This document shows, in pieces, positions 49,926 to 64,000 of a stretch of DNA of 64,000 nt; within the stretch, counting starts at the first letter, position 1; each line of letters starts with the position of its first letter. The DNA comes from Persephonella sp. IF05-L8 (GTDB lineage: Bacteria; Aquificota; Aquificia; Aquificales; Hydrogenothermaceae): NCBI RefSeq assembly GCF_000703045.1, contig NZ_JNLJ01000001.1:773501-837500 (forward strand). The letters are read 5' to 3'. The notes under the pieces are model-generated. The model was not told the origin of the DNA. It worked only from the letters and a program-made list of their open reading frames with translations, and ran no database searches. A program made the position numbers and the translations under genes.

Positions 49926-51554
49926 ATGAAAATGGAGAAGATAAAAAAAATTTTGGGGATGTTCAAGTTTTTAAAGAATAAGAAAGTAATACTGCTTCTA
50001 ATTATTTTAGGACTACTTCTCATTCTTCCGCCGCTTGGAATATATGCATGGAACAAAAGAATACCTCAAAAAACAGTATTAGTGTTAAAAAATATTGTTC
50101 ATAATGTATTTCTGGAAAAACATCAAGTAGGGGATATTTATGGTGTGGTGCATCTGGAAGAGATGAAAGAAATAGAATTATCAGAGTTGAAACTTCCACC
50201 TAAAGAGGAAGAAAAAGAAGAAATTAAAGAGGTTCACGAACTTGAAAAAGAAATTCAAGAACTGAAAAAAGAAGAAAAAACAGAAAAAACCCCTAAACCA
50301 AAACCTAAAAGAATTGTAGAACCTTTACCTCTTGAGGAATACCCAAAAGAATTTTTACCCTTAAAAAAGGTTCTTCACAGACCATTTAAACAGGGTGCCT
50401 GTGCAATATGTCACCAGGTGGATAATCATGGAAAAGTAATAAAGATAGGGAAAAAATATCCCTTAACCAGAGCAAGAGTAGATGAACTTTGTTATTCTTG
50501 CCACAAAGAAAGATACACTAAAAAATACGACCACAAACCTGTTAAAAAAGGCGAATGTCTCAAGTGTCACGACCCTCATCAGTCTAATACTGAAAAATTA
50601 CTTACAGCCAAGACAGTCCCTCAACTGTGTATAAAATGTCATTCCCCAGAAAACGGAAAGAAGCTTAGAATTAAGAAAGTAGTAAATATAAATGTAAAAT
50701 ACAAACATAAACCTGTAGATAAAGATTGTAGAAACTGTCATGACCCTCATACTTCGGATAATAAACACCTTCTTATTACATCTCTTGACTGGAAAATGGA
50801 TTTTTGTCTGGATTGCCATTCCAAAATAAAAGACCCAGAAAAAAGAAAGAAAATTGATATAACACCTCTTTTAAAAACTGCAAAATATAAACATGATGCA
50901 GTTTTTGATAAAGATGAATGTGCCAACTGTCATGAAATACATGGTTCTAATCACAGGATTATGCTAAAGAAACCTATGACTGAAGCCTGTTTATCCTGTC
51001 ATAATAAAGAGGTTAAACAGAAAGAAACAGGAGAAATACTTATGAATATGGAAAAACATTTAAAAGAAAATAAATACTGGCATAAACCTATAAAAGAGGT
51101 AGAGAAAAAGGGAGGCTGTGCTGCCTGTCATAATCCTCATGGTTCAAACTACCCCTATGCCCTTAAAAAGTTTTTCCCTAAAGATTTTTACCTTTCAGGA
51201 TTAAAAATAGGGGAAGTTATGTGTTTCTCCTGTCATAAGGAAAAGGAAAGATTTACCATGAAAGAAGTAACTTCAGATAAAATTACCAAATTTAGAAACG
51301 GAACAGAAAACCTTCATTGGAGGCACACACAAGGAGAAAAAGGTAGAACATGTATAGCATGTCATGACCCTCACGCTTCCCAATGGCCTAATATGATAGG
51401 AAAATATACAAATTTCAACGGAATATTATTCCCTATAAGATACAAAAAAACAAAAACTGGAGGTTCTTGTGCTCCTGCCTGTCATGACAAATTTGACTAC
51501 GATAGAATTCAGCCTGTGAAAAATACAGGTGAAATAAAAGAACAGTTCAAATAA
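49926..51554 (+). CDS. Membrane-anchored 12-heme cytochrome c
   Basis: 542 aa. An N-terminal basic segment and one uncleaved-looking helix (VILLLIILGLLLILPPLGIY, 21-40) are followed by a Glu/Lys coiled-coil-like spacer (about 78-125) and a Pro/Lys linker, then 11 CxxCH motifs (CAICH, CYSCH, CLKCH, CIKCH, CRNCH, CLDCH, CANCH, CLSCH, CAACH, CFSCH, CIACH) and a CX3CH (CAPACH). The haem part is a paralogue of the 47997-49187 protein. The long spacer could let the haem head reach across the periplasm. It follows the NapC-like gene by 5 bases. Confidence 0.9.
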   Translation: MKMEKIKKILGMFKFLKNKKVILLLIILGLLLILPPLGIYAWNKRIPQKTVLVLKNIVHNVFLEKHQVGDIYGVVHLEEMKEIELSELKLPPKEEEKEEIKEVHELEKEIQELKKEEKTEKTPKPKPKRIVEPLPLEEYPKEFLPLKKVLHRPFKQGACAICHQVDNHGKVIKIGKKYPLTRARVDELCYSCHKERYTKKYDHKPVKKGECLKCHDPHQSNTEKLLTAKTVPQLCIKCHSPENGKKLRIKKVVNINVKYKHKPVDKDCRNCHDPHTSDNKHLLITSLDWKMDFCLDCHSKIKDPEKRKKIDITPLLKTAKYKHDAVFDKDECANCHEIHGSNHRIMLKKPMTEACLSCHNKEVKQKETGEILMNMEKHLKENKYWHKPIKEVEKKGGCAACHNPHGSNYPYALKKFFPKDFYLSGLKIGEVMCFSCHKEKERFTMKEVTSDKITKFRNGTENLHWRHTQGEKGRTCIACHDPHASQWPNMIGKYTNFNGILFPIRYKKTKTGGSCAPACHDKFDYDRIQPVKNTGEIKEQFK

Positions 51555-51562
51555 GTGGAAAG

Positions 51563-52669
51563 ATGAAAATGAAAAATACAATAATACTACTTTTGATAGG
51601 GATATTTTTTTCTTTTTCAACTAAAGCTGAGCAGAAAGTTTACAGGCTTAACTTAAAAATTCCTGCTAATGAGCCTGTTGAAATAATTCAACCTGCTGCA
51701 AACTCTATACATTATGAGGATACAGCTGCATTAGTTCTTAAGATAGACCCTAAGAGAGTTGTTAAACTTGAAGTAATTACTTATTTTCAGGTTTTTCATC
51801 TTGACCCTGATGAAGAAGTAGTATACAAAAACAAAGCTCAAAAGAGAAAAAAGAAATTTGTCTTTAATATTAAAGAGGATAAGGTATATTACTGCAAAAG
51901 TATAGATTTGAGATATGGAAGAAACAAAATACAGGTCACAGCAACAACAAATAAAGGGAAAAAGATAAAAAAATTTGTAGAGGTGTATCTTGCTTCTCCC
52001 ATTCTAAGAGCCTATAAATATCCCCCTCCTAAATATAAGGAAATATTCTTCCATAAAGAGAAAAATGAAAAGGTATGTGCCGAATGCCATGATATGACTG
52101 TTAACGAGAAAAAAGGAGTTGCCTTTGAGGATGTTACAAAATCAAATTGTTATTTATGTCATAAAAAGCTTACTACAAGATATAAATATAATCATGCTCC
52201 TGCCAGAAACTGGCTCTGTGCAACAACCTGCCATACAGGGAAGACAGGGAGACTAAATAAAAGACTTGAAGGAAAATCAAAATTCATCTGGCCTGAGCCC
52301 CAAGGACCTGAATGCTATAAATGTCATAAAGAAAAGGAAAAAGAGTGGGATAATAAAAGATTTCATCATGACCCTGTTGTGGCAGGCATGTGTGATAAAT
52401 GCCACAACCCACATTCATCACCAAACAGATATTTCTTGAGAAAACCATCCTGGTATCTATGTACAACCTGCCATGAAGACAAAGTATTAAGAGGGCATGT
52501 TGTTTTTACATTTTTAGGTAAACCCCACCCTACAAAAGGATATAAAGATCCATCCAATCCTAAAAGAGAACTATCCTGTATAAGCTGTCATGAAGCCCAT
52601 AACTCAGACAACAATTTTATGCTTATCAAACCATTTAGCCAAATATGTAATATGTGTCATAAAAAATAA
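51563..52669 (+). CDS. Beta-sandwich/octaheme cytochrome c fusion
   Basis: 368 aa with a signal peptide (LLLIGIFFSFSTKA). Residues about 25-150 look like an Ig-like beta-sandwich without haem motifs (NKIQVTATTNKGKKIKKFVEVY at its end). The rest carries CAECH, CYLCH, CATTCH (CX3CH), CYKCH, CDKCH, CTTCH, CISCH and CNMCH, i.e. seven standard and one wider motif. The 52728-53702 protein has the same layout. The Ig-like part may attach it to another protein or surface. It is fourth in the operon, 8 bases after its neighbour. Confidence 0.88.
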   Translation: MKMKNTIILLLIGIFFSFSTKAEQKVYRLNLKIPANEPVEIIQPAANSIHYEDTAALVLKIDPKRVVKLEVITYFQVFHLDPDEEVVYKNKAQKRKKKFVFNIKEDKVYYCKSIDLRYGRNKIQVTATTNKGKKIKKFVEVYLASPILRAYKYPPPKYKEIFFHKEKNEKVCAECHDMTVNEKKGVAFEDVTKSNCYLCHKKLTTRYKYNHAPARNWLCATTCHTGKTGRLNKRLEGKSKFIWPEPQGPECYKCHKEKEKEWDNKRFHHDPVVAGMCDKCHNPHSSPNRYFLRKPSWYLCTTCHEDKVLRGHVVFTFLGKPHPTKGYKDPSNPKRELSCISCHEAHNSDNNFMLIKPFSQICNMCHKK

Positions 52670-52727
52670 TATTTATTGCTATAAAATATCTAAATATAGT
52701 TTAATATAATTTCCCTATGAAAGAGAT

Positions 52728-53702
52728 ATGAGAATGAAAAGGATTTTTTTGTTTTTATTTATTCCTTTTATCTCATATGGATTTGAGATACTTGCTCCAA
52801 TAAAGAACGGCATATACAAGGAAGAATTTGCCACTATATCTGTAAAATTAAGTAAAGATGAAATAGAAAAAGGAATATCTCTTGAATTTAAAACAGATAA
52901 AGATTACTTCATGTTTGGAATGAATCCAGAAAAAACAGTCTACTGCAAATCATTAAAAATAAAGCCTGGAACAAATATTGTTGAAATAGTCTATACAGAT
53001 GGAAATGGTAAACAAACAAAAAAATTTGTTGAAATTTTTAGATACTCTCTCCTTTATAAAGTATCTGAAGAACCTCCTTCAAAATTTGAAGAAAGACCTT
53101 TCCATACAAGAAAAAATGAAGATAGATGTAAAAGCTGCCATGATATGAGCTCACTTCCTGAAGATATTATTCCCAAATCTCCGGAAAAATCCCCATGCTA
53201 CTCCTGCCACAAAGTTTTAACCTCAAGACGAAAAGTCCACGCACCTTCGGCAAATTGGGCTTGTAACTACTGCCATCTTGATGTGAAGCTCTCCTACCAG
53301 AGGTATGAAACACCATTACCCATCTCAGAAAAATGTTTCTCCTGTCATGAATATAGAAAAAAAATATGGATGAACAAAAAGTATGTCCATGGACCTACAT
53401 CAACAGGTCAATGTGATATTTGCCATAACCCTCATTCCTCTAACAATATATTTTTCTTAAAAAAGCCAATATGGAATTTATGTGTAACTTGTCATGCTGA
53501 AAAAGCCAGTGGAATACACGTTCTTGCAGGATTTGTTTTTGGAAAATCCCATCCAACCAGAGGAAAACCTGACCCATCAAGACCTGGAAGGGAATTGGTT
53601 TGTTCAAGTTGTCACAATCCCCATGCTTCCAACTACAAATATTTATTTAACCATGATTACACAGGGGACAAATATCTTTGCCAAATGTGTCATAAGAAAT
53701 GA
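52728..53702 (+). CDS. Beta-sandwich/octaheme cytochrome c fusion, paralogue
   Basis: 324 aa with a signal peptide (IFLFLFIPFISYG), an Ig-like region (about 18-115, ending TKKFVEIFRYSLLYK) and eight CxxCH motifs (CKSCH, CYSCH, CNYCH, CFSCH, CDICH, CVTCH, CSSCH, CQMCH). It aligns with the 51563-52669 protein across both parts (YCKS, EERPFHTRKNEDRC, NPHSSNN, LCxTCH). The third motif here is a normal CxxCH where the paralogue has CX3CH. Last gene of the rightward operon, 58 bases after its neighbour, so it may also have its own promoter. Confidence 0.88.
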   Translation: MRMKRIFLFLFIPFISYGFEILAPIKNGIYKEEFATISVKLSKDEIEKGISLEFKTDKDYFMFGMNPEKTVYCKSLKIKPGTNIVEIVYTDGNGKQTKKFVEIFRYSLLYKVSEEPPSKFEERPFHTRKNEDRCKSCHDMSSLPEDIIPKSPEKSPCYSCHKVLTSRRKVHAPSANWACNYCHLDVKLSYQRYETPLPISEKCFSCHEYRKKIWMNKKYVHGPTSTGQCDICHNPHSSNNIFFLKKPIWNLCVTCHAEKASGIHVLAGFVFGKSHPTRGKPDPSRPGRELVCSSCHNPHASNYKYLFNHDYTGDKYLCQMCHKK

Positions 53703-53937: not shown

Positions 53938-55293
53938 TTATATATGTTTTGCCTTGGCTTTCAGTAAAATCTCTTTTATTTCTGGGACTTTGGCGTAATC
54001 AAGAGGCGTTTTTCCTCTCAAATCTTTTGCATTAACATCTGCCCCTTTTTTTATTAAAAATTTAACCATTTCTGTCTGTCTTCTCAAAACTGCAAGATGA
54101 AGGGGGGTTTCTTTGTATTTTCCTTTAAGATTAACATCAGCTCCACGACTTATAAGGAGCTTGGCTACATCTAATTTGCCTGCCATGGCAGCCTTAAATA
54201 AAGGTGTCCATCCCTTGTTATTTTTTGCATTTATATCTGCCCCATGTTTTATAAGAACCTGAGCAACTTTTAAATGACCCTCAAGTGCTGCTATGTGAAG
54301 AGGCGTATCCCCGTACTCATCTTTAACATTTACTTTTGCCCCGTGCTTTATAAGATATTCTGTTAAATTACTATCTCCATTTCTGGCTGAAACATGTAAA
54401 ACATAATCCCCATATTTGTTTTCCCTTGCATTCACATTAGCGTTGTGATTTACAAGTAGTTTTACAAGCTCCAATTCTCCTCGGAATGTGGCTTCGTGAA
54501 GAGGTGTCCAACCGTCATTATCCTGTGCGTTAACATCTGCCCCATTGTTTATTAAAAATTTCACAACCTTTATGTCACTTCCAGCCAGTGCAAGATGAAG
54601 GGGAGTTTTACCTTTATCGTTTCTCGCATTTATATATGATCCTTTTTGAACAAGTATTTTAACCAGATTAAACTTTCTTTGTATTACAGCTTTGTGTAAA
54701 GGAATTTCTTCGTCTTTATCCTTTATGTTTGGGTCTGCTCCATTTTCAAGAAGTATCTTTGCAACCTCATACTCTCCTCTATATGCTGCATGGTGAAGAG
54801 GTGTCCAGCCGTTGCTGTTTTGAGTGTTGATAGGAGACCCTGCTTCTATTAGTATCTGAACTACAGTTGGGTGTCCCCCTAAAGCTGCAAGATGAAGAGG
54901 TGTATCTCCATCACTATTTTTTGCATAGACATCAGCTCCATTATCCAGAAGCAGTTTTACTATTTCTTCATAACCTAAAAATGCAGCTTCATGGAGGGGG
55001 GTCCATCCTTCAAGATTTTGCACATTAACATTTGCCCCTTTATTTATAAGCATTTTTACAAGATTAATATCCCCTTTGATTGTTGCCAGATGCAAGGGAG
55101 TATTTCCTATAATGTTTTTTACATTAACACCGGCACCCTCTTCAATCAGTTCCTTAATCGCTTTGAGATTTTCTTGAGATATTGCTTCAGTCAGTTTCTT
55201 GTTAAGCTCGGCTTTTGTCTTACCATATGCAGAGACGGCTGGAAAAGCCGTAATCAAAACCATACTTATAAACAGTTTGTAAAATCTTCTCAA
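53938..55293 (-). CDS. Exported ankyrin-repeat protein (about 12 repeats)
   Basis: 451 aa with a signal peptide (cleavage near SAYG) and about a dozen 33-residue ankyrin repeats (GxTPLHLAAxxGHxxVVxxLIxxGADVNxxN pattern) from residue 30 to the end; a final short repeat reads GKTPLDYAKVPEIKEIL. No other domain. Repeats are very regular, so this is a stiff binding solenoid acting outside the cytoplasm. Third of three tandem ankyrin genes. Confidence 0.93.
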   Translation of the reverse strand: MRRFYKLFISMVLITAFPAVSAYGKTKAELNKKLTEAISQENLKAIKELIEEGAGVNVKNIIGNTPLHLATIKGDINLVKMLINKGANVNVQNLEGWTPLHEAAFLGYEEIVKLLLDNGADVYAKNSDGDTPLHLAALGGHPTVVQILIEAGSPINTQNSNGWTPLHHAAYRGEYEVAKILLENGADPNIKDKDEEIPLHKAVIQRKFNLVKILVQKGSYINARNDKGKTPLHLALAGSDIKVVKFLINNGADVNAQDNDGWTPLHEATFRGELELVKLLVNHNANVNARENKYGDYVLHVSARNGDSNLTEYLIKHGAKVNVKDEYGDTPLHIAALEGHLKVAQVLIKHGADINAKNNKGWTPLFKAAMAGKLDVAKLLISRGADVNLKGKYKETPLHLAVLRRQTEMVKFLIKKGADVNAKDLRGKTPLDYAKVPEIKEILLKAKAKHI

Positions 55294-55305
55294 TTTGCTT
55301 CCTCC

Positions 55306-56106
55306 TTAAAAAATTTCGCTTCCCCTTTTCCCTCCCAGTTTCTGGAGCAACTTTTTCAGGTCTTCAACTTTTGCATAATCAAGGGGAGTACGTTTTCTTA
55401 TATCTTTAGCATTAATGTTAGCTCCTTTTTTGATTAAAAAAAGCACCATTTTCTTATGTTTCCTCATAACAGCAAGATGAAGGGGCGTTTCTCTTGACCT
55501 TCCACATGCGTTTATATCAGCACCATTCTCTAACAATATTTTTGCTACTTCAACCTTTCCTGTCAATGCAGCTTTGTGCAGTGGGGTCCATCTTCTGGCA
55601 TTCAAAGCATTAACATCAGCTCCCTTCTCAATTAATATTTTAACTATGTCAACATGTCCTTCAAGTGCTGCGAGATGAAGGGGAGTATCCCCATATTTGT
55701 CTTTTACATTTACGTCTGCACCTTTTTCTATGAGTAATTTCAATATTTCGGTATATCCTTTCATCGCTGCAATATGTATCGGGGCATATCCGAAAAATTT
55801 TTCCCTTGCGTTTATATCAGCACCATTTTCAATCAGAATTTTTACTATTTTTAAATTTCCTTTACTGACCGCCCTTAACAAAGGTGTGTAATTGTTCTTA
55901 TCCCTTGCGTTTACATCTGCACCTTTTTCTAAAAGTTCTTGAACAAGCTCAGCATCCCCTAATTTTATCGCTTCAAACAGTTTACGGTTTAATTTTTCTC
56001 TTGTTTCAGCAAAGGCTCGGGAAATAGTTATATTTTTTTCCATTGAAGGTAATATAGTTAATAAAGGGAAAACAAGCAGAAACATAATGATTTTTTTTGA
56101 CAACAT
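55306..56106 (-). CDS. Exported ankyrin-repeat protein (about 7 repeats)
   Basis: 266 aa with an N-terminal hydrophobic export signal (IIMFLLVFPLLTILP), a REKLNRKLFEAIKLGDAELVQ cap that is also found in the next gene's product, and about seven ankyrin repeats ending RTPLDYAKVEDLKKLLQKL. Middle gene of the trio, 8 bases after the first and 12 bases before the third. Partner unknown. Confidence 0.92.
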   Translation of the reverse strand: MLSKKIIMFLLVFPLLTILPSMEKNITISRAFAETREKLNRKLFEAIKLGDAELVQELLEKGADVNARDKNNYTPLLRAVSKGNLKIVKILIENGADINAREKFFGYAPIHIAAMKGYTEILKLLIEKGADVNVKDKYGDTPLHLAALEGHVDIVKILIEKGADVNALNARRWTPLHKAALTGKVEVAKILLENGADINACGRSRETPLHLAVMRKHKKMVLFLIKKGANINAKDIRKRTPLDYAKVEDLKKLLQKLGGKRGSEIF

Positions 56107-56114
56107 TATGCTAC

Positions 56115-56789
56115 CTATTTTTTTAATATTTTAAGGAATTCTGGATCCTGAGTATAATCCTTCGGTGTATGTCCAAACTTGTCTTTTATGTTAGGATCAG
56201 CACCTAATTTTATCAGGAGTTTAGCAACCTCCTTATGATTCCAAAATACAGATTCGTGAAGGGGTGTATCACCATCTTCATCTACAGCATTTACATTAGC
56301 TCCGTGTTCCACCAGGTATTTTACAACATCTACATGACCGTGTCTTGCTGCATAATGAAGTGGAGTTGAACCATTTTTTGTTCGTGCATTAATGTCAGCT
56401 CCATATTTTAAGAGAATTTTCACAGTGTTTAGATTACCCTGTCCAGCTGCAAGGTGTAGTGGGGTTTCCCAGTTATCATCTTTTGCATTGACATCAGCCC
56501 CGTGCTTTATTAGGTACTCTACTATTTCAACATTCCCTTTAAATGCAGCCTCATGAAGTGGAGTCCATCCGATAGCATCTTTGCTGTTTACATCTGCTCC
56601 TTTCTGGATTAGTTCTTTTATTAATTTTATATTTCCTTCAGAAACAGCTCTGTTTAAAGGAGGCTTTCCTTCCTTTTTTTTGAGCCTTTCTTTTAGTTCT
56701 TCAATAGTTTTAGGCTTTTCGGTTGCTTTAAGGGAGGAGGGCAGTATAATAAGGGATAATAGTAAAAAAAAGATGCATAAAAATCTCAT
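56115..56789 (-). CDS. Exported ankyrin-repeat protein (about 5 repeats)
   Basis: 224 aa with a signal peptide (FFLLLSLIILPSSLKA) and about five ankyrin repeats (first GKPPLNRAVSEGNIKLIKEL, last GHTPKDYTQDPEFLKIL). First gene of the trio, with GAGGGGAT before the ATG. The three genes probably arose by duplication with gain of repeats. In other bacteria periplasmic ankyrins can protect catalase or bind haem-containing partners; here no function is assigned. Confidence 0.92.
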   Translation of the reverse strand: MRFLCIFFLLLSLIILPSSLKATEKPKTIEELKERLKKKEGKPPLNRAVSEGNIKLIKELIQKGADVNSKDAIGWTPLHEAAFKGNVEIVEYLIKHGADVNAKDDNWETPLHLAAGQGNLNTVKILLKYGADINARTKNGSTPLHYAARHGHVDVVKYLVEHGANVNAVDEDGDTPLHESVFWNHKEVAKLLIKLGADPNIKDKFGHTPKDYTQDPEFLKILKK

Positions 56790-56879
56790 ATCCCCTCCTC
56801 CCTATAGTTTAATCCTCTATATTAAATTATACATCAATTTCCTAAATTATTCTTAATATTTAACTTTTTATAATCATAC

Positions 56880-57644
56880 TTAGAATATTTTTTTAGCAAA
56901 TAAAATTGCAAAAATTAGAACTGCTGAGTTCAGGGCAAATCTGAACGGCTTTTGAGGAAGATAAGGGGATATTAAAGCTCCAAAAACAACCCCTATTATT
57001 CCACCCTGGAGAAGATACATCAGAATTTTTGTATCAACACCTCCAAATGAATAATGAATGCTGCCTGCAAAAATACTCAGAATAAAACCGTGAACTATAT
57101 CTGTACCTACAATTTTTGAAGGGTTCATAGGGCACAGGGCTAAAAGAATTGAGGCAACAATGACACCTGCACCAATTGATGTAAAGCCTATATCAAAACC
57201 AACAATAAAGCCTATAACAGGTATAACGAAAGGCTTTGTTCTTATATCAAAATTTATTATTTTTTCATTTTTTGTAAACATTCTGTAGTAAGAAAAACAG
57301 CAGGAAGCAACAATCATAAACAGTATAAAAGAAGGAACTACCTTTGAGGCTAAAGATGGGTTTAACTGAAAAAAATAATGGAATGAGTAGCTTCCAAGAA
57401 AAGCCCCAGGAATACTTCCTGCTGCAAGCAGGGTGGCAAGTCTTATACAGACCAGTCCCCTTTTAAGATAAACAACTGAAGCAAAGATTTTTGTAATCGC
57501 TGAAAAAAAGAGGCTGGTTCCCACCGCAGTTGCGATAGGAACCCCCATGAGTAGAGTAAGGGCAGGTGTAGTTAACATTCCTCCTCCCACTCCTGATATA
57601 CCTATAATTAAGCCTAATACTCCACCTAATAATATAAGTTCCAT
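56880..57644 (-). CDS. TauE/SafE-family membrane transporter (possible sulfite/sulfate carrier)
   Basis: 254 aa, about eight membrane helices, with the family's N-terminal glycine motif GLIIGISGVGGGMLTTPAL and the repeat IVGFDIGFTSIGAGVIVASIL in the second half. TauE/SafE proteins move sulfite, sulfoacetate or other organosulfur anions. Lying directly after the APS reductase gene (no gap), it probably imports sulfate or sulfite or exports excess sulfite; direction cannot be read from sequence. Confidence 0.88.
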   Translation of the reverse strand: MELILLGGVLGLIIGISGVGGGMLTTPALTLLMGVPIATAVGTSLFFSAITKIFASVVYLKRGLVCIRLATLLAAGSIPGAFLGSYSFHYFFQLNPSLASKVVPSFILFMIVASCCFSYYRMFTKNEKIINFDIRTKPFVIPVIGFIVGFDIGFTSIGAGVIVASILLALCPMNPSKIVGTDIVHGFILSIFAGSIHYSFGGVDTKILMYLLQGGIIGVVFGALISPYLPQKPFRFALNSAVLIFAILFAKKIF

Positions 57645-58373
57645 TTATTCTTTTTGGGTAAATGTGTGTAATCCGCACTCCAATTTTCCTTTTCCAGCCC
57701 ATCTACCAGCTCTTTCATCTTCTCCGTCTAAAACAGGTTTTGTACATGGAGCACAACCGATACTTAGATAGTTTTGGTCATAAAGAGGATTATAGGGGAG
57801 TTTATTTTCCTCTACATATTTCCACACATCTTTTCTTGTCCAGTTTGCTATCGGGTTAACTTTGAGTATTAGTTTTCCGTCTGGAAGTTTATGGGTCTCA
57901 ACCTTGCCTATATTTGCCCTTGTTGGAGATTGGTCTCTTCTCATTCCTGTAATCCAGACATCAAGTTCTTTTAATACTCTTTTTAGGGGTTCAACCTTCC
58001 TGATTTCACAGCATTTGTCTGGGTCTTTTTCGTAAAGTTTCTCGCCATATATTCGCTCCTGTTCCTCAACAGATATAAGGGGTTTTATTATTTTCAGGTT
58101 TAAATTCCATTCTTTTTTAAGCTTTTCAACAAGCTGGTAAGTTTCTGGAAAATGGTAATCTGTATCAATAAAAATAATAAGGGCATCAGGTTTTATCTGT
58201 TTTATCATATGGATTATTGATACATCATCTGCACTGAATGATGAGGTAAAACCTACATTCCTGAAGTTTTGGAAAATCCACTTTAAAAGTTCCTGTGCAG
58301 GTAGATTTTCAAAGTAGTCGCTTTTTTCCTTTACAAACTCTTTTGTAAACATTTTTTCCTCCTTAAAGTTCAT
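57645..58373 (-). CDS. cysH: Assimilatory adenylyl-sulfate (APS) reductase
   Basis: 242 aa CysH-family enzyme reducing APS to sulfite with thioredoxin. The PP-loop-like core FTSSFSADDVSIIHM and FIDTDYHFPETYQL bind the nucleotide. The pair CCEIRKVEPL and GCAPCTKP provides the four cysteines of a 4Fe-4S cluster, which marks APS-specific rather than PAPS-specific enzymes; RRDQSPTRAN and the C-terminal ECGLH hold the substrate and catalytic Cys. It overlaps the TrpD-like gene by 11 bases. The product sulfite is used by the enzyme at 60758-63046. Confidence 0.94.
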   Translation of the reverse strand: MNFKEEKMFTKEFVKEKSDYFENLPAQELLKWIFQNFRNVGFTSSFSADDVSIIHMIKQIKPDALIIFIDTDYHFPETYQLVEKLKKEWNLNLKIIKPLISVEEQERIYGEKLYEKDPDKCCEIRKVEPLKRVLKELDVWITGMRRDQSPTRANIGKVETHKLPDGKLILKVNPIANWTRKDVWKYVEENKLPYNPLYDQNYLSIGCAPCTKPVLDGEDERAGRWAGKGKLECGLHTFTQKE

Positions 58374-59376
58374 ATATATTTTTGTAGTTCAGGTATTCTG
58401 AGTATCTCTGGATATTTTTTAACACCTGAAAGTAGTCGTATTTCCTAAAAAGCTCTTTTGACAGTTCAAAGCCTTCCTGAATATCATTTACAACATCTTT
58501 GAGATATAAAAGAAGTCCGCTGTTTATGTGTAGCAGAGGTTCATACTCAGGTAGTTTTTTACCTAAAAGAGCTTTTATAAAGTCTATATGCTCAGACAGT
58601 TCAAGTTTTTTATGTAAAAATGGTTTTCCACCCAATGCAGATATGTCTATCTCTATTAATTCTTCTTTATCTCCAAAGATATAAATATTTGTTGAAGAAG
58701 TTATGTCAGGAAATCCTTCTCTCTCTTCAATTAGGGCAAATCTTTTGTATCTTCCTTCTAAAAGTTTTTTATAAAAAAGAAGTTGTTTTTTGCTCTTTAC
58801 TCCACCTACAGCATAGTTTGAGGATACAGGGTTGTGATACTTTTCAATATAATGGAAAATATCATTTATATTTAGTTCTGCTCTTATAGAATTTAATGCA
58901 GACACCTGGGGTAAAAAAAGTTTTCTATTAAAAAATCCAATATTTAAATTTTTTAGTATATCAGCACTATCATTATTTGAAATTGGTGCTATATTCAGGT
59001 AATCAAAAATATCTTTTGTTGTAGGAGTAGATAAATTTTCTCCATGAAAAACTGTTTTTATGCTGCTGTCTGGAAGAAGTGAAAGAATAATGCTGGCAGC
59101 TATCAAAAAGTAAGGAGAAAAATTTTTTCTTCTATAGGGGTAGGCTATTTCTATAGAGTTTCTCTCTTCATAAAATATTTCTTTATATTTATCAACTATT
59201 ATTAATGCTTTTTTATAGGAAGCGGGAGATTTATTGTATTTCAGGCAGACAAGAGCCGCCGATATCCTTATATCGGAATAATTGCCATCCAATATGTTTT
59301 TAATTATCCCAGAAGTTCCAGAGCATAATCTTTTATTTTTTCTTCTTTTTTTTAACCTGTAAATAAAATTTTCCAT
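58363..59376 (-). CDS. TrpD-like phosphoribosyltransferase-family protein in a sulfur operon
   Basis: 337 aa with the two-part layout of anthranilate phosphoribosyltransferase: a small helical domain (ILDGNYSDIRISAALVCLK near 28-46) and an alpha/beta domain (VFHGENLSTPTTKDIFDYLNI, then LPQVSALNSIRAELNI and AVGGVKSKKQLLFYKKLL). The glycine-rich PRPP loop KHGNRSxSSxxGS of true TrpD is changed to FHGENLSTPT, so tryptophan synthesis is unlikely. It resembles the TrpD2/YbiB-like branch. It leads the cysH-tauE operon behind a sigma-54 type promoter, so a role in sulfate assimilation or its control is inferred. Confidence 0.75.
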   Translation of the reverse strand: MENFIYRLKKRRKNKRLCSGTSGIIKNILDGNYSDIRISAALVCLKYNKSPASYKKALIIVDKYKEIFYEERNSIEIAYPYRRKNFSPYFLIAASIILSLLPDSSIKTVFHGENLSTPTTKDIFDYLNIAPISNNDSADILKNLNIGFFNRKLFLPQVSALNSIRAELNINDIFHYIEKYHNPVSSNYAVGGVKSKKQLLFYKKLLEGRYKRFALIEEREGFPDITSSTNIYIFGDKEELIEIDISALGGKPFLHKKLELSEHIDFIKALLGKKLPEYEPLLHINSGLLLYLKDVVNDIQEGFELSKELFRKYDYFQVLKNIQRYSEYLNYKNIYEL

Positions 59377-59411
59377 ATCACTACCTCCTTTTGAGCTGCA
59401 GATTATTCAAA

Positions 59412-59427
59412 AGCAAACAGTGTGCCA
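59412..59427 (-). promoter_or_regulatory. Sigma-54 type promoter for the leftward sulfur operon
   Basis: Minus strand TGGCAC-ACTGT-TTGCT, matching the sigma-54 consensus with GG and GC exactly ten bases apart. It lies about 36 bases before the TrpD-like ATG. Confidence 0.75.
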
Positions 59428-59495
59428 TTTTTATAAAGGGTTGAAAAATAAGGAAAATTGAAAAGATGGTTCGCCTGTGTGGTTAAAAAATAAAC

Positions 59496-59523
59496 ATTTG
59501 TGGATTACCATTTGACCACAAAT
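59496..59523. promoter_or_regulatory. Palindrome, candidate activator site shared by two sigma-54 promoters
   Basis: ATTTGTGG, 12 bases, CCACAAAT: a perfect 8-bp inverted repeat centred about 60 bases upstream of the rightward and 82 bases upstream of the leftward sigma-54 site, where an enhancer-binding protein would be expected. Confidence 0.55.
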
Positions 59524-59568
59524 ATTCACGTCCTTAAAAAAAGCATTAATTTTCAGGAACTTAGGATT

Positions 59569-59584
59569 TGGCACATCTGTTGCT
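59569..59584 (+). promoter_or_regulatory. Sigma-54 type promoter for sat and sulfite reductase
   Basis: TGGCAC-ATCTG-TTGCT, with GG (59570-59571) and GC (59582-59583) ten bases apart. It lies 28 bases before the sat ATG. Confidence 0.78.
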
Positions 59585-59612
59585 TAAGTTCTTTAAAAAA
59601 GGAGGTAAAAGA

Positions 59613-60761
59613 ATGATACAGCCCCACGGAGGAAAACTTATAAAAAGAATTGCAGACAACGAAGAAAGGGATTTCATTCTGTCCCTTAATTTAAAAAGGA
59701 TATACATAGAAAAAGATGAGGCGTTAGATGCGGAAAAAATAGCGATAGGTAGTTTTTCACCTCTTGAGGGCTTTATGGACAGGGAGGATTTAAAATCTGT
59801 CTGCAGTCATTTAAGCCTTAAAAATGGAATTGTTTGGTCTATTCCTATTTTGCTCCAGATTGATGATCCTTCCCACTTAAAAATTGGTGAAAAGGTTTTG
59901 CTTGTGGACAAAACAGATAACAATCCTGTAGCTGTTATGGACATATCAGACATCTACAAACTGAACAAAAAAGAAATCGCCAACACAGTCTTTGGAACAC
60001 TTGATGAGAACCATCCGGGGGTAAAAAGGCTTTTCTCAAAAGGGGACTACAGCATCGGAGGAAAGATAAAACTTCTAAACAGACCATCTTTCCCAAATAA
60101 AGAGTACGAACTTGACCCTGAAGAAACAAGGGAGATATTCAGGGAAAGGGGGTGGAAAACTGTTGTTGCCTTCCAGACAAGGAATGCACCCCACAGAGCC
60201 CATGAGTATCTCCACAGGTTAGGCATGGAAATAGCTGAGGGACTTTTCATTCACCCGATAATAGGATTAAAAAAAGAAGGGGATTTTGACAGCTCGGTTA
60301 TCTTAAAGGCATACCAGATTTTAATAAACAGCTACTACCCGCACAGAAAAGTTTTACTTGCAGGGCTGTCAACATCTATGAGATACGCAGGTCCAAGGGA
60401 AGCTGTTTTCCATGCAATAGTCAGAAAAAATTACGGCTGTACCCATTTTATGGTAGGTAGAGACCACGCAGGTGTAGGAGATTATTACGACCCTTTTGCT
60501 GCCCACAAGATATTTGATGAGATACCTGATATAGGTATAAAGATAGTCAAGTTTTACAATGTGTTCCACTGCGACAGATGCGGTGGAATAGTATCAGAAA
60601 ATACCTGCTCACACCCTGAAGAGATGATAACAAAAATCAGCATGACAAAAATAAGAAAAGCCCTCTCTGAAGGGAAAAGACCTCCTTCAACAATGCTCAG
60701 GGAGGAGGTTGCTGACTTTTTAATTGAAAACTTTAATCTTGTAACGGAGGATTACAGATGA
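59613..60761 (+). CDS. sat: ATP sulfurylase (sulfate adenylyltransferase)
   Basis: Makes APS from sulfate and ATP. From ATG 59613 (AAAGGAGG upstream) the protein has 382 aa. It shows SFSPLEGFMDREDL, AFQTRNAPHRAHEYLHR (the QxRNxxHxxH active site), GRDHAGVGDYYDPFAAH and the zinc-type cysteines/histidine of FHCDRCGGIVSENTCSHPEE. This is the single-domain bacterial/archaeal form, used for assimilation or sulfur oxidation. With APS reductase and sulfite reductase beside it, assimilation is the clear context. It overlaps the sulfite reductase gene by four bases. Confidence 0.96.
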   Translation: MIQPHGGKLIKRIADNEERDFILSLNLKRIYIEKDEALDAEKIAIGSFSPLEGFMDREDLKSVCSHLSLKNGIVWSIPILLQIDDPSHLKIGEKVLLVDKTDNNPVAVMDISDIYKLNKKEIANTVFGTLDENHPGVKRLFSKGDYSIGGKIKLLNRPSFPNKEYELDPEETREIFRERGWKTVVAFQTRNAPHRAHEYLHRLGMEIAEGLFIHPIIGLKKEGDFDSSVILKAYQILINSYYPHRKVLLAGLSTSMRYAGPREAVFHAIVRKNYGCTHFMVGRDHAGVGDYYDPFAAHKIFDEIPDIGIKIVKFYNVFHCDRCGGIVSENTCSHPEEMITKISMTKIRKALSEGKRPPSTMLREEVADFLIENFNLVTEDYR

Positions 60762-63046
60762 TAAAAAACGGCATTTACAGAGATTACCTAAAGGATATTG
60801 AGGAGTTCAACAGGCTATACAGGGATTTTAAGGAAGGAAAAGCATTTGAAAGTGATTTTAAAAATTTCAGACTTGTGAACGGCATCTACGGTCAGAGACA
60901 GAAAGAGTTTCATATGGTAAGAATTAAGATACCTGCTGGCATATTAACAGCTGAACAGATAAATGAGATAGCAGATATTGGGGACACTTTCTCAAACGGG
61001 GTTGCCCACGTAACAACAAGACAGGATATACAGTACCACTGGATAAAATTGGAAGATGTTCCCCAGATAATAAAAAGGATAAACGAGGCAGGTCTTACAA
61101 CAAAAGATGCCTGCGGAAATGCTCTTAGAAACATAACAGCAAGTTATTTATCAGGGGTGTGCCCAAATGAGATAATAGATGTGGGGAGGGTAGCCCAGAA
61201 ACTTACTGAACTGCTTATAGGAAAGTACGAAAATCTTCCAAGGAAATTCAAGATAGGTTTTGCCTGCTGTGAAGAACACAGCTTTCTTGTGCCTTTTAAT
61301 GATATAGGTTTTTTACCAGTGCTAAATCAGGGAAAACCTGCATTCAGGGCTTTTGTAGGAGGCGGTCTGGGGGACAGACCTAAATACCCTTACGAATATC
61401 CTGAGGTTATACCTCTTGAAGACCTTGTCCTGTTTGTAAGGTCGGTTATGGAACTTTTTGACAGATATGGGGACAGAAAAAATAAAAGACACAACAGGCT
61501 AAAATTTTTAATCCAGAAATTGGGAATAGATGAGTTTTTTAGACTGCTGAAGGAGGAGATACAGAAAAATTCGGCAGAATATGAAAAATTCCAGTGTGAT
61601 GCTGTATACGTTGAGGAGAAAGAGGAAAATATCCTTCCAGAAGGAAAAAATCCCCAGCATCAAATCTGGATAGAAACAAACGTTATTCCCCAGAGACAGA
61701 AAGACCTTTTTGCTGTCCTTATCAGGCTTCCACTTGGAAATATAACGACAGGAAAATTGAGAAAAATAGCCGAAATATCACGGGATTATTCAGTTCAGGT
61801 AAGGACAACTCAGGATCAGAACATCGCCCTGATAAATGTTCATAGAGAGATGCTGGATAAGATTTATCATTCTCTCAAAGAGGCAGGATTACAGGATTAC
61901 GGTGCATCAACATACCTTGATATAACATCATGCCCTGGGTCTGAAACATGTAGTCTGGGAATAACCTCATCAAGAGATTTATCAAGGGCTATTTATGAAA
62001 AACTTCCTAAAGACCCTGAAACTGTAAGGAAACTAAAAAACATTACAATAAAGGTAAGTGGGTGTCCCAACGCATGTGCCCACCATCATGTTGCATCAAT
62101 CGGACTTCACGGCATAGCTGTGAAAATTGAGGATACACTGATACCTGCTTATGTTATACATCTGGGAGGAAACGGAACCCTTCACAACCAGAAAATCGGA
62201 TATACAGGGATAAAAATTCCTGCAAAGAATGTTCCTGATGCAGTAATAGAGCTTCTTAATTTTTATCTTGAAAACAGCTATCAGAACGAGAATTTTGAAG
62301 ATTTTGTTGAGAGGATAACACCTGAGAAAATAAACAAACTTCTTGAAAAACACAAAGAGCTTTATAAAAAAGTGGAATACAATGTTGACTGGGGTTCAGA
62401 TAAACAGTTCTCACTTGAAGACCTCGGCACTGGAGAGTGTGCAGGTATAATCGCAGACAGGGTTGAAGAAGCCTTAAAAGAAGGTGAAAGACTTATAAAA
62501 CAGGCTGAAACACACATAAACAGGGGGCTTCCTGAAGATGCAGTCGTCCATATAGAAAAGGCTGTTGATATTATATCATCAGGTCTTCTTATTCCATTTG
62601 GTGTAAAAGCAGAAGGAAAAGATGCCAGAGAAAAGTTTACAGAACAGATAATAGGCAGAAAACTTGTTGATGAAAAATTTATAAAGCTCCTTGACAGGCA
62701 GATAAAAAATCCCCATGAACTGGTAAATACAGCAAAAGAGTTTTATACCGTATGTAAGGAAACATACCTGAAGCTCAGGAGGGAAACAGAAGAAAAAAGA
62801 AAGGAGAAAAAAGAAGAGAAAGGAAGAAAAGAGTTTTTAGACCTGAGAGGAGTAGAATGCCCCTTCAACTTTGTTAAGGCTAAGTATAAACTGAAAGAGA
62901 TGGATGTAGGCTCAATACTTGTTATAACTATTGATGGAGAAGAAGCGATTAGAAGCGTTCCACAGAGTTTAAGAGATGAAGGACATGAGATTATTGATAT
63001 ACAGGAGGAGAAAGATTATTATACTGTTGTGGTAAGAAAGAGGTAG
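60758..63046 (+). CDS. Sulfite (nitrite/sulfite-type) reductase fused to a helical region and a TusA domain
   Basis: 762 aa. Residues 1-560 are a sirohaem/4Fe-4S reductase with two repeats (NGIYGQRQKEFHMVRIKIPAG; GVAHVTTRQDIQYHWI; RTTQDQNIALI) and the cofactor cysteines in CPGSETCSLG (about 392, 398) and SGCPNACAHHH (about 435, 439). Residues about 570-690 are helical, resembling a HEPN domain, ending in a Lys/Glu-rich linker. Residues about 690-762 form a TusA-like sulfur-carrier domain with CPFNFVK (Cys about 701). Reduces sulfite to sulfide, perhaps handing sulfur to the carrier. Nitrite reduction is possible, but context favours sulfite. Confidence 0.9.
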   Translation: MIKNGIYRDYLKDIEEFNRLYRDFKEGKAFESDFKNFRLVNGIYGQRQKEFHMVRIKIPAGILTAEQINEIADIGDTFSNGVAHVTTRQDIQYHWIKLEDVPQIIKRINEAGLTTKDACGNALRNITASYLSGVCPNEIIDVGRVAQKLTELLIGKYENLPRKFKIGFACCEEHSFLVPFNDIGFLPVLNQGKPAFRAFVGGGLGDRPKYPYEYPEVIPLEDLVLFVRSVMELFDRYGDRKNKRHNRLKFLIQKLGIDEFFRLLKEEIQKNSAEYEKFQCDAVYVEEKEENILPEGKNPQHQIWIETNVIPQRQKDLFAVLIRLPLGNITTGKLRKIAEISRDYSVQVRTTQDQNIALINVHREMLDKIYHSLKEAGLQDYGASTYLDITSCPGSETCSLGITSSRDLSRAIYEKLPKDPETVRKLKNITIKVSGCPNACAHHHVASIGLHGIAVKIEDTLIPAYVIHLGGNGTLHNQKIGYTGIKIPAKNVPDAVIELLNFYLENSYQNENFEDFVERITPEKINKLLEKHKELYKKVEYNVDWGSDKQFSLEDLGTGECAGIIADRVEEALKEGERLIKQAETHINRGLPEDAVVHIEKAVDIISSGLLIPFGVKAEGKDAREKFTEQIIGRKLVDEKFIKLLDRQIKNPHELVNTAKEFYTVCKETYLKLRRETEEKRKEKKEEKGRKEFLDLRGVECPFNFVKAKYKLKEMDVGSILVITIDGEEAIRSVPQSLRDEGHEIIDIQEEKDYYTVVVRKR

Positions 63047-63111
63047 AATTGAAAAAGTTTAAGTTATACTTTATATATAATAATTATCATTTAAAACTGG
63101 AAGTTAAAATT

Positions 63112-63426
63112 ATGAGAAAAATATTCCTTTTACTTTTTGCTTTTTATTCAAGTACTTTTGCCTTTCCTTTTGACCATATGAGTGGAGGGCAAAATCAACA
63201 AATGTTAGGCTGCATAGGAGATTGTGCAGCCTGTCATTCATTAACCCCCATAGAAGCTCAGGCAATCTTAGGGCAAAAGTTTGACGTTAAAAAAATACTT
63301 AAAATAGATATAAAAGATGGTTTCTTTGAAATAGAATATGAGACTTCCAAAGGAAAAAAGGAGAAGATAAATTTATTTTTTAGCAAGGATAAAGCCTGCA
63401 AAGAAATTATAAATCTTAATGAGTAG
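63112..63426 (+). CDS. Small exported protein with one CxxCH motif
   Basis: 104 aa from ATG 63112, chosen because a signal peptide begins there (KIFLLLFAFYSSTFA); an upstream in-frame TTG at 63049 would bury it. The mature protein has CIGDCAACHSLTPIEAQAIL, with four residues between two of the cysteines and one CAACH haem motif, then a DsbC-N-like strand region (VKKILKIDIKDGFFEIEYE) and a late Cys (KACKE). I have the impression that similar CxxCAxCH segments precede DsbC-type domains, but no thioredoxin domain follows here. It may be a haem or thiol-redox protein. Confidence 0.72.
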   Translation: MRKIFLLLFAFYSSTFAFPFDHMSGGQNQQMLGCIGDCAACHSLTPIEAQAILGQKFDVKKILKIDIKDGFFEIEYETSKGKKEKINLFFSKDKACKEIINLNE

Positions 63427-63436
63427 GGTAAGAGGC

Positions 63437-63877
63437 ATGATGGATATTCTCTCTTTTATTAAAAAATCTATAATTAACAGAATTCTTTTTATCACTATTT
63501 CTGGTGCAGTTGTTGTTTCTGTATTGTCTTTTTTTATTTTTTACTTTATTTTTGCGAAAGAGGGAACTTATCACTTTCTTGAAAGTATCCTGAACTATGC
63601 AAAAACTCACCCGTTTACATTTGCGTTGTTCTTAGGCTTTCTAACATTTCAGGCAGCTCTAATTCCTATAATTATGACATACTTCCTTCTGAAAAAAGAA
63701 GTGATAGACCCATTACAGGATATATCTGAAAGAATGGAAAAGATATCTATGGGTGAGCTTGAACAGGAAATTCCTGTTGAAAGGGAAGATGAGATAGGAC
63801 AACTTCAAGAAGCATTTGATAGGATGAGAATGAGCCTAAAAGTTATAATTGAAAAACTGGAAAATGAGGAACTATGA
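63437..63877 (+). CDS. HAMP-domain membrane protein without an output domain
   Basis: 146 aa with two membrane helices (about 14-36 and 57-82), a very short periplasmic loop (about 20 residues) and a HAMP domain (about 84-137: KEVIDPLQDISERMEKISMGELEQEIP...DEIGQLQEAFDRMR). It stops soon after the HAMP, with no kinase or methyl-accepting part, so it may relay to a partner or be a truncated receptor. I start at ATG 63437, with AGAGG close upstream; an ATG at 63419 overlapping the previous stop is also possible. Confidence 0.78.
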   Translation: MMDILSFIKKSIINRILFITISGAVVVSVLSFFIFYFIFAKEGTYHFLESILNYAKTHPFTFALFLGFLTFQAALIPIIMTYFLLKKEVIDPLQDISERMEKISMGELEQEIPVEREDEIGQLQEAFDRMRMSLKVIIEKLENEEL

Positions 63878-63897
63878 TAAAAATTTAATCATTATGC

Positions 63898-63914
63898 TGG
63901 TTAAAATTTAACCA
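63898..63914 (+). terminator. Weak AT-rich hairpin after the HAMP gene
   Basis: TGGTTAAA-A-TTTAACCA, an 8-bp inverted repeat 20 bases after the stop codon. The loop is only one base and the stem is AT-rich, so its strength is doubtful. Confidence 0.3.
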
Positions 63915-63926
63915 CTTAAAATTTTT

Positions 63927-63985
63927 AGAGTTGTTATTTTACTTATTTTTCAACAACTTATAGATTGGCACACCTTTTGAATATA
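63927..63985 (+). promoter_or_regulatory. Degenerate copy of the sigma-54 promoter region
   Basis: This stretch matches the leftward sulfur promoter (59460 down to 59403 on the minus strand) through CTTATTTTTCAAC, TTATA and TTGGCACAC, then rejoins at TTTTGAATA, but lacks about six bases that carry the -12 GC. The spacing leaves GG-N10-GA. It points to a gene starting beyond the right edge. Confidence 0.45.
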
Positions 63986-64000
63986 ACCTCCTGAAAAATT

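Follow-up and report, generated by a model that had tools for sequence, protein, structure and literature searches.

Elsewhere, cys genes are usually under CysB-type or riboswitch control. What controls them in the heat-loving Persephonella sp. IF05-L8, in which two sets of sulfate-assimilation genes point away from each other across a gap of 236 bp? The gap lies within the 64,000-nucleotide stretch of contig NZ_JNLJ01000001.1 (positions 773,501 to 837,500) that was analysed here and that is referred to, as a whole, as the window. A preliminary description of this DNA saw in the gap two sigma-54 promoters around a palindrome, and proposed that one sigma-54 activator switches on both arms together, perhaps on sulfur limitation. 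It asked for the gene of the activator and its binding motif, and for both promoter sites to be sought in orthologous intergenic regions; a genome with no rpoN would have spoken against it. Is there such an activator? If so, where does it act and what might it sense? From the sigma-54 promoters and the neighbouring activator described below, we consider it very probable that sulfate assimilation is served in this organism by a dedicated sigma-54 regulon.

Divergent promoters and the genes of the two arms

Each strand of the gap carries a perfect match to the sigma-54 consensus TGGCAC-N5-TTGC (Table 1), as had been claimed, with GG-N10-GC spacing in both. The ATG at 59376 is 36 nt from the minus-strand site and that of sat, at 59613, is 29 nt from the plus-strand site, in agreement with the 28–36 bases given in the preliminary description. 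The predicted sat leader is ~18 nt long. There are six perfect matches in the 1.83-Mb genome, and two of these six face outward from this one gap. Three of the remaining four (loci L014, L015 and L018) are 36–55 nt 5' of genes that were named by eye from their translations as FlhF-like, type IV pilin-like and LpxC-like; flhF, pilin and lpxC genes are of kinds known to be under sigma-54 control. No gene lies at a fitting distance from the fourth. With one mismatch allowed, the count in the genome rises to 67, and the reversed control pattern then gives 12.

The genome contains a single copy of rpoN (E 7.8e-59), so that the refutation by its absence falls away. Orthologous intergenic regions were also compared: each of the eight genus genomes read at the region has both divergent sites, and no site departs from the consensus by more than one base. 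The search for a sigma-70 promoter gave just one weak sigma-70-like match, which is below chance expectation, and there were zero Rfam matches to a known riboswitch in 56000–64000.

Table 1. Features of the divergent region and of the adjoining activator operon. Positions are those of the window except where a prefix is given.
Feature	Position	Strand	Sequence or basis
TauE-family transporter	56880-57644	-	Pfam/NCBIfam-based gene naming
cysH, APS/PAPS reductase	57645-58373	-	Pfam, NCBIfam
TrpD/Glycos_transf_3-like gene, first of left arm	58363-59376	-	weak Pfam and NCBIfam matches below cut-offs
Sigma-54 promoter, trpD-like/cysH/tauE arm	59413-59427	-	TGGCACACTGTTTGC, perfect consensus match; predicted start ~59401
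Dyad 1	59480-59496		TGGTTAAAAAATAAACA, conserved; centre -107 from sat start, -87 from left start
8-bp inverted repeat of the preliminary description	59496-59523		real, chance level, not conserved
Dyad 2, weaker	59502-59518		GGATTACCATTTGACCA; centre -85 from sat start, -109 from left start
Sigma-54 promoter, sat/SiR-TusA arm	59569-59583	+	TGGCACATCTGTTGC, perfect consensus match; predicted start ~59595
sat, sulfate adenylyltransferase	59613-60761	+	Pfam, NCBIfam
Nitrite/sulfite reductase-type SiR fused to C-terminal TusA domain	60758-63046	+	Pfam, NCBIfam
Small CxxCH protein	63049-63426	+	ORF; orthologues in cluster
HAMP-domain membrane protein without kinase	63419-63877	+	kept in cluster
Upstream dyad, activator operon	63875-63891		TGATAAAAATTTAATCA; centre -109
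Second dyad, activator operon	63898-63914		TGGTTAAAATTTAACCA; centre -86
Third sigma-54 promoter, thioredoxin-like gene and activator	63966-63980	+	TGGCACACCTTTTGA, kept in eight genus genomes; predicted start 63992
Thioredoxin-like gene, first of activator operon	C1:837522-837971 (L011:6022-6471)	+	weak likeness, C-x-C; past window end
Sigma-54 activator (bEBP), second gene of short operon	C1:838020-839411	+	past window end

Several features of the genes themselves deserve mention. The TrpD-like gene heads the left arm in the genus and in genome G014, and is missing from L106 and from the Aquificaceae. The SiR-TusA fusion gives full-length alignments in relatives within the Hydrogenothermaceae and in one genus of the Aquificaceae; in other Aquificaceae the match is to the reductase part alone. 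The fusion may pass sulfide on as bound persulfide. The annotated start of the CxxCH protein is uncertain, and an internal ATG at ~63112 suits its orthologues. Together with the HAMP-only and thioredoxin-like proteins, it is kept between sat/SiR and the activator in the genus and G014 only, and these three are possible accessory sensors. A second sat, outside the window (G000:C1:740934-742070) and 47% identical to that within it, is of the kind found in most other Hydrogenothermaceae, cysH-less genomes included, and probably has a role in sulfur oxidation. Elsewhere in the window there are three ankyrin-repeat genes in a row, apparent paralogues with signal peptides, on the minus strand at 53938–56789, and three multihaem (CxxCH-rich) cytochrome-like genes in a row at 49926–53702.

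A conserved pair of dyads and a neighbouring activator

The palindrome of the preliminary description is present and is indeed a perfect 8-bp inverted repeat, ATTTGTGG at 59496–59503 and CCACAAAT at 59516–59523, with a loop of 12. The importance given to it does not stand. In a region of the same size and composition 0.2–0.4 such repeats are expected by chance (about 0.22 per 236 bp of this DNA), one occurs in 18% of Markov resamples of the region, and there is no counterpart in six other genus genomes. Being at chance level and not conserved, the repeat is ruled out as the operator. It partly overlaps two other dyads that are conserved.

Alignment of seven orthologous regions gives three conserved blocks, which are the left -12/-24, the right -24/-12 and, in the centre, TGGtTAAAAAATAAcCA. 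The centre forms a 17-bp dyad of the TGGTTA-N5-TAACCA type, and a weaker second copy follows 20–23 bp further on (22 bp in the sat region of the window). Dyad 1 is likely the activator site common to both arms. Dyad 2 of the sat region is degenerate; alone it ranks 16th in 98 kb with the matrix described below, and the tandem-pair test gives p<0.01.

Where is the activator? A candidate bEBP gene is found ~3.8 kb downstream of the SiR-TusA start. The protein has an AAA+ domain (PF00158, E 2.7e-75) in which GAFTGA is present and a Fis-type HTH (PF02954, E 4.6e-14), and is one of five full sigma-54 activators in the genome. Its operon is preceded by the same type of promoter and the same tandem dyads as the sat region, which supplies a candidate for the motif that had been asked for along with the gene. 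The second of these dyads is the sole perfect TGGTTA-N5-TAACCA of the genome. A pattern search of the genome that allows up to two mismatches gives 81 matches against 58 for the reversed control, which is a modest excess. A matrix is more telling. It was trained on the activator-operon promoter from seven other genomes, with the genome studied here and all sat regions excluded, and was run over 98 kb of the genome. Its top three matches are the two home dyads, with 25.4 and 15.3 bits, and the sat dyad at 59480, which ranks second with 17.2 bits; the best score at any other place in the 98 kb is 11.4 bits. Of all the ties of the activator to the divergent region, this recovery of the sat dyad is the strongest. 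With one rpoN, an activator gene nearby, the same operator at both places and the recurrence across the order described below, the proposal that one sigma-54 activator serves both arms is strongly supported.

The placing of the dyads is nearly fixed. Measured from the predicted start, taken as 12 nt past the -12 C, their centres are at about -107/-85 in most regions; in the window the two arms have -107/-85 and -109/-87, and the activator operon has -109/-86, all within the -80 to -150 or so expected of sites for an enhancer-binding protein. Departures are mostly near one helical turn (-119/-98, -120/-100 and -97/-77), with -116/-94 not so. In 26 regulatory regions the best tandem pair is spaced by 20–23 bp, and 25 of the 26 beat resampled sequence at p<=0.02, in a test whose dyad core was picked after the sequences were seen and whose genomes are related. 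The exception is the weak tandem pair before SiR in G014 (p 0.12). Such geometry is what would be expected from a looping enhancer that keeps to a fixed face of the helix. In their sat regions, G009, G005 and G008 (L099, L097 and L098) have dyads 20 bp apart and the remaining genus members 22–23 bp apart; at the activator-operon promoter the spacing is 20 bp in G009 and 23 in G005.

Recurrence of the system across the Aquificales

Where genus genomes have sulfate assimilation, the cluster of nine genes is conserved to the extent that their contigs cover it. Among 112 Aquificales genomes, 31 have cysH. A strict cut-off gives 20 activator orthologues, and every one of them is within these 31 (Fisher p 1.3e-14, with kinship ignored). 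Eleven cysH genomes have no strict match: G041, G054, six Aquificaceae, G049, G052 and G067. In G041, which is of the same species, the contig ends inside sat, and the contig of G054 is too short. In the six Aquificaceae, where the match is below the E cut-off, the activator, promoter and dyads stand beside SiR-cysH-tauE, and beside sat as well where the contig reaches it. A first reading, that ten cysH Aquificaceae had no activator, was overturned in this way, as six of the six fetched with enough context have it (G049, G052 and G067 being outside this check). On these comparisons the activator appears to occur in Aquificales only with sulfate-assimilation genes, with promoter and dyads at nearly the same distances.

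The lineages differ in gene order, while the regulatory logic appears to stay. G014 keeps the divergent promoter pair and the activator-operon promoter. In L106 and L198, where the sat belongs to the other lineage, cysH-tauE-sat is divergent from SiR-TusA-activator and each of the two has a sigma-54 site as its promoter. In Aquificaceae the activator is divergent from SiR-cysH-tauE-sat and there is a sigma-54 site before SiR, which in three genomes, all from one genus, has two mismatches. No sigma-54 site was found immediately before sat in Aquificaceae, since their operon begins with SiR and has its promoter there. Their tandem dyads have the form TGTTTA-N5-TATACA and adjoin the activator start.

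The recognition helix of the HTH reads NRATL or NRSTL where the dyads are of the TGG/TGA type, and NRITL or NRLTL where they are of the TGT type (L011, L198 and L199-L205). This covariation is a lead to the residue that gives specificity, although it may reflect a single historical change.

A candidate sensor, the proposed mechanism and its rivals

What might the activator sense? Its N-terminal 120 residues look by eye like a receiver domain, for which there is no Pfam match in the activator. Among the orthologues, either D or N is found at the phospho-acceptor position, and the acidic pair and the Lys are missing. Phosphorylation by a partner kinase is therefore unlikely. Directly before the AAA+ domain there is a C-x3-C motif (CQYLCS, CKELCS or CEELCS), which is present in 20 of the 20 orthologues compared and also in the six added Aquificaceae activators. 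None of 68 other activators among the species-genome loci fetched, and none of the four paralogues in the same genome, has it at this place. Relatives outside the order were drawn from 84,980 species genomes as the best 80 loci; L106 apart, none of these 80 has C-x3-C before the AAA+ domain or stands beside sat or cysH, and only a HAMP match (L112) and a 24%-identical reductase (L120) were noted. In a model of the L106 orthologue, in which N-terminal confidence is low, the cysteine pair is near the end of a long linker helix.

The presence of C-x3-C in all orthologues and its absence from other activators make a thiol, sulfide or metal-cluster switch the leading idea. Because the receiver-like domain has no conserved phospho-acceptor, we infer that the motif senses sulfide, thiol or redox state. 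A switch of thiol or metal/Fe-S type might thus control the AAA+ ring, a suggestion in which our confidence falls a little below even. In the same tentative spirit, we propose that this family of activators, found here in Aquificales only, could be a master switch that reads reduced-sulfur or redox state through the linker C-x3-C and not through phosphorylation. It would be active when sulfide is scarce, as a mirror image of FisR, the sulfide/persulfide-responsive sigma-54 activator of Cupriavidus and Acinetobacter, which has a TauE gene among its targets (PMC7315123).

In the mechanism that we envisage, sigma-54 RNA polymerase would sit as a closed complex at both divergent -24/-12 promoters. 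The bEBP would bind the tandem 17-bp dyads midway, loop to either promoter and open it by ATP hydrolysis, so that trpD-like/cysH/tauE and sat/SiR-TusA would be switched on together. By binding the like dyads before its own operon, the same bEBP would amplify its own production. With reduced sulfur at hand the activator would be held off; with sulfate as the only source it would be released, assemble on the dyads and open the three promoters. Since reduced sulfur is also an energy source that these organisms oxidise, a tight switch between environmental sulfide and the ATP-costly sulfate route would make physiological sense. Judged by the genes controlled, the trigger named in the preliminary description, sulfur limitation, is plausible.

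Might the regulon instead answer sulfide or sulfite stress, or redox, with reactive sulfur turning the activator on as it does FisR? The regulon includes a TauE-family transporter, as do FisR operons (PMC7315123), the N-terminal fold is uncertain, and C-x3-C could be an on-switch or an off-switch. However, every step from sulfate to sulfide is in the regulon, which suits biosynthetic demand, and extra sulfide under sulfide stress would be counterproductive. We regard this reading as unlikely, while giving it some weight.

It is improbable that the sulfate genes are activated by a different bEBP, such as an NtrC-type nitrogen regulator, and that the neighbouring one serves something else. There are four further full bEBPs in the genome, and bEBPs can cross-activate, yet the one whose occurrence matches that of the pathway across the order is the neighbouring bEBP, and its own promoter carries the dyads of the sat region. 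In addition, pattern searches gave no good dyad match near any other perfect sigma-54 site in the genome. We also give little credence to a reading in which an unrelated regulator, such as a repressor or another activator, binds the dyads and the sigma-54 activator works without them. A repressor position would be possible in Aquificaceae, where the dyads adjoin the activator start codon, but the placing at -85 to -120, the tandem layout and the shifts of about one helical turn are typical of enhancers. Moreover, the dyads accompany this bEBP in every lineage, and its HTH helix goes from A/S to I/L where the dyad goes from TGG to TGT. Finally, consensus matches alone are weak evidence and TGGCAC-like words occur inside genes too, but with both sites, the dyads and their distances conserved over the order and no good sigma-70 match, it is hardly credible that the sites are chance matches and that ordinary sigma-70 promoters are used.

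The preferred reading, a sigma-54 regulon with its own neighbouring activator, can be set beside systems that are already known. In the sigma-54 control of the glnA type, an NtrC-family bEBP acts with tandem upstream activating sites. The present system is like it in its -24/-12 promoters, GAFTGA AAA+ domain, Fis-type HTH and paired dyads ~85–110 bp upstream. It is unlike it in that the target is sulfate assimilation, in a receiver-like domain without the conserved phospho-aspartate, in the C-x3-C of the linker, and in having one dyad pair between two divergent promoters. Within the Aquificales, NtrC4 sites precede lpxC in Aquifex aeolicus.

Compared with CysB-type or riboswitch control, the target pathway is the same and the class of regulator is another, no known riboswitch having been found here. 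SfnR of Pseudomonas is a sigma-54 activator for the use of dimethyl sulfone and is part of the CysB circuit. As with SfnR, sigma-54 would here preside over sulfur nutrition, but SfnR serves organosulfur scavenging and the targets here are the core sulfate pathway, for which we know of no case of sigma-54 control. In the available passages of a 2025 survey of sigma-54 targets, sulfite reductase (COG0155) is among the enriched targets in Aquificia, and those passages are silent on an activator, an operator, a divergent arrangement and a sensor (PMC12316311). A dedicated activator, an operator, a shared divergent enhancer or the cysteine motif was found neither in these passages nor in the other open-access papers searched. 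If the regulon is as proposed, the core sulfate assimilation of a whole bacterial order is under all-or-none sigma-54 control. With activator, operator and candidate sensor motif named, each step is open to in vitro testing on thermostable proteins, and Aquificales proteins already serve as structure models for bEBPs.

As in the case of FisR, a sulfur operon that has a sigma-54 promoter is accompanied by a dedicated bEBP, and tauE is among the targets. The cysteines of Cupriavidus FisR are located in its regulatory domain, and here C-x3-C is in the linker just before the AAA+ domain. Cysteines have been implicated in sensing by Cupriavidus FisR, and Acinetobacter FisR lacks them (PMC7315123). 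FisR drives sulfide oxidation (SQR and PDO) when sulfide is present, whereas the targets here are sat, cysH, SiR and tauE. These targets make sulfide from sulfate, and the sign of the signal should therefore be opposite to that of FisR.
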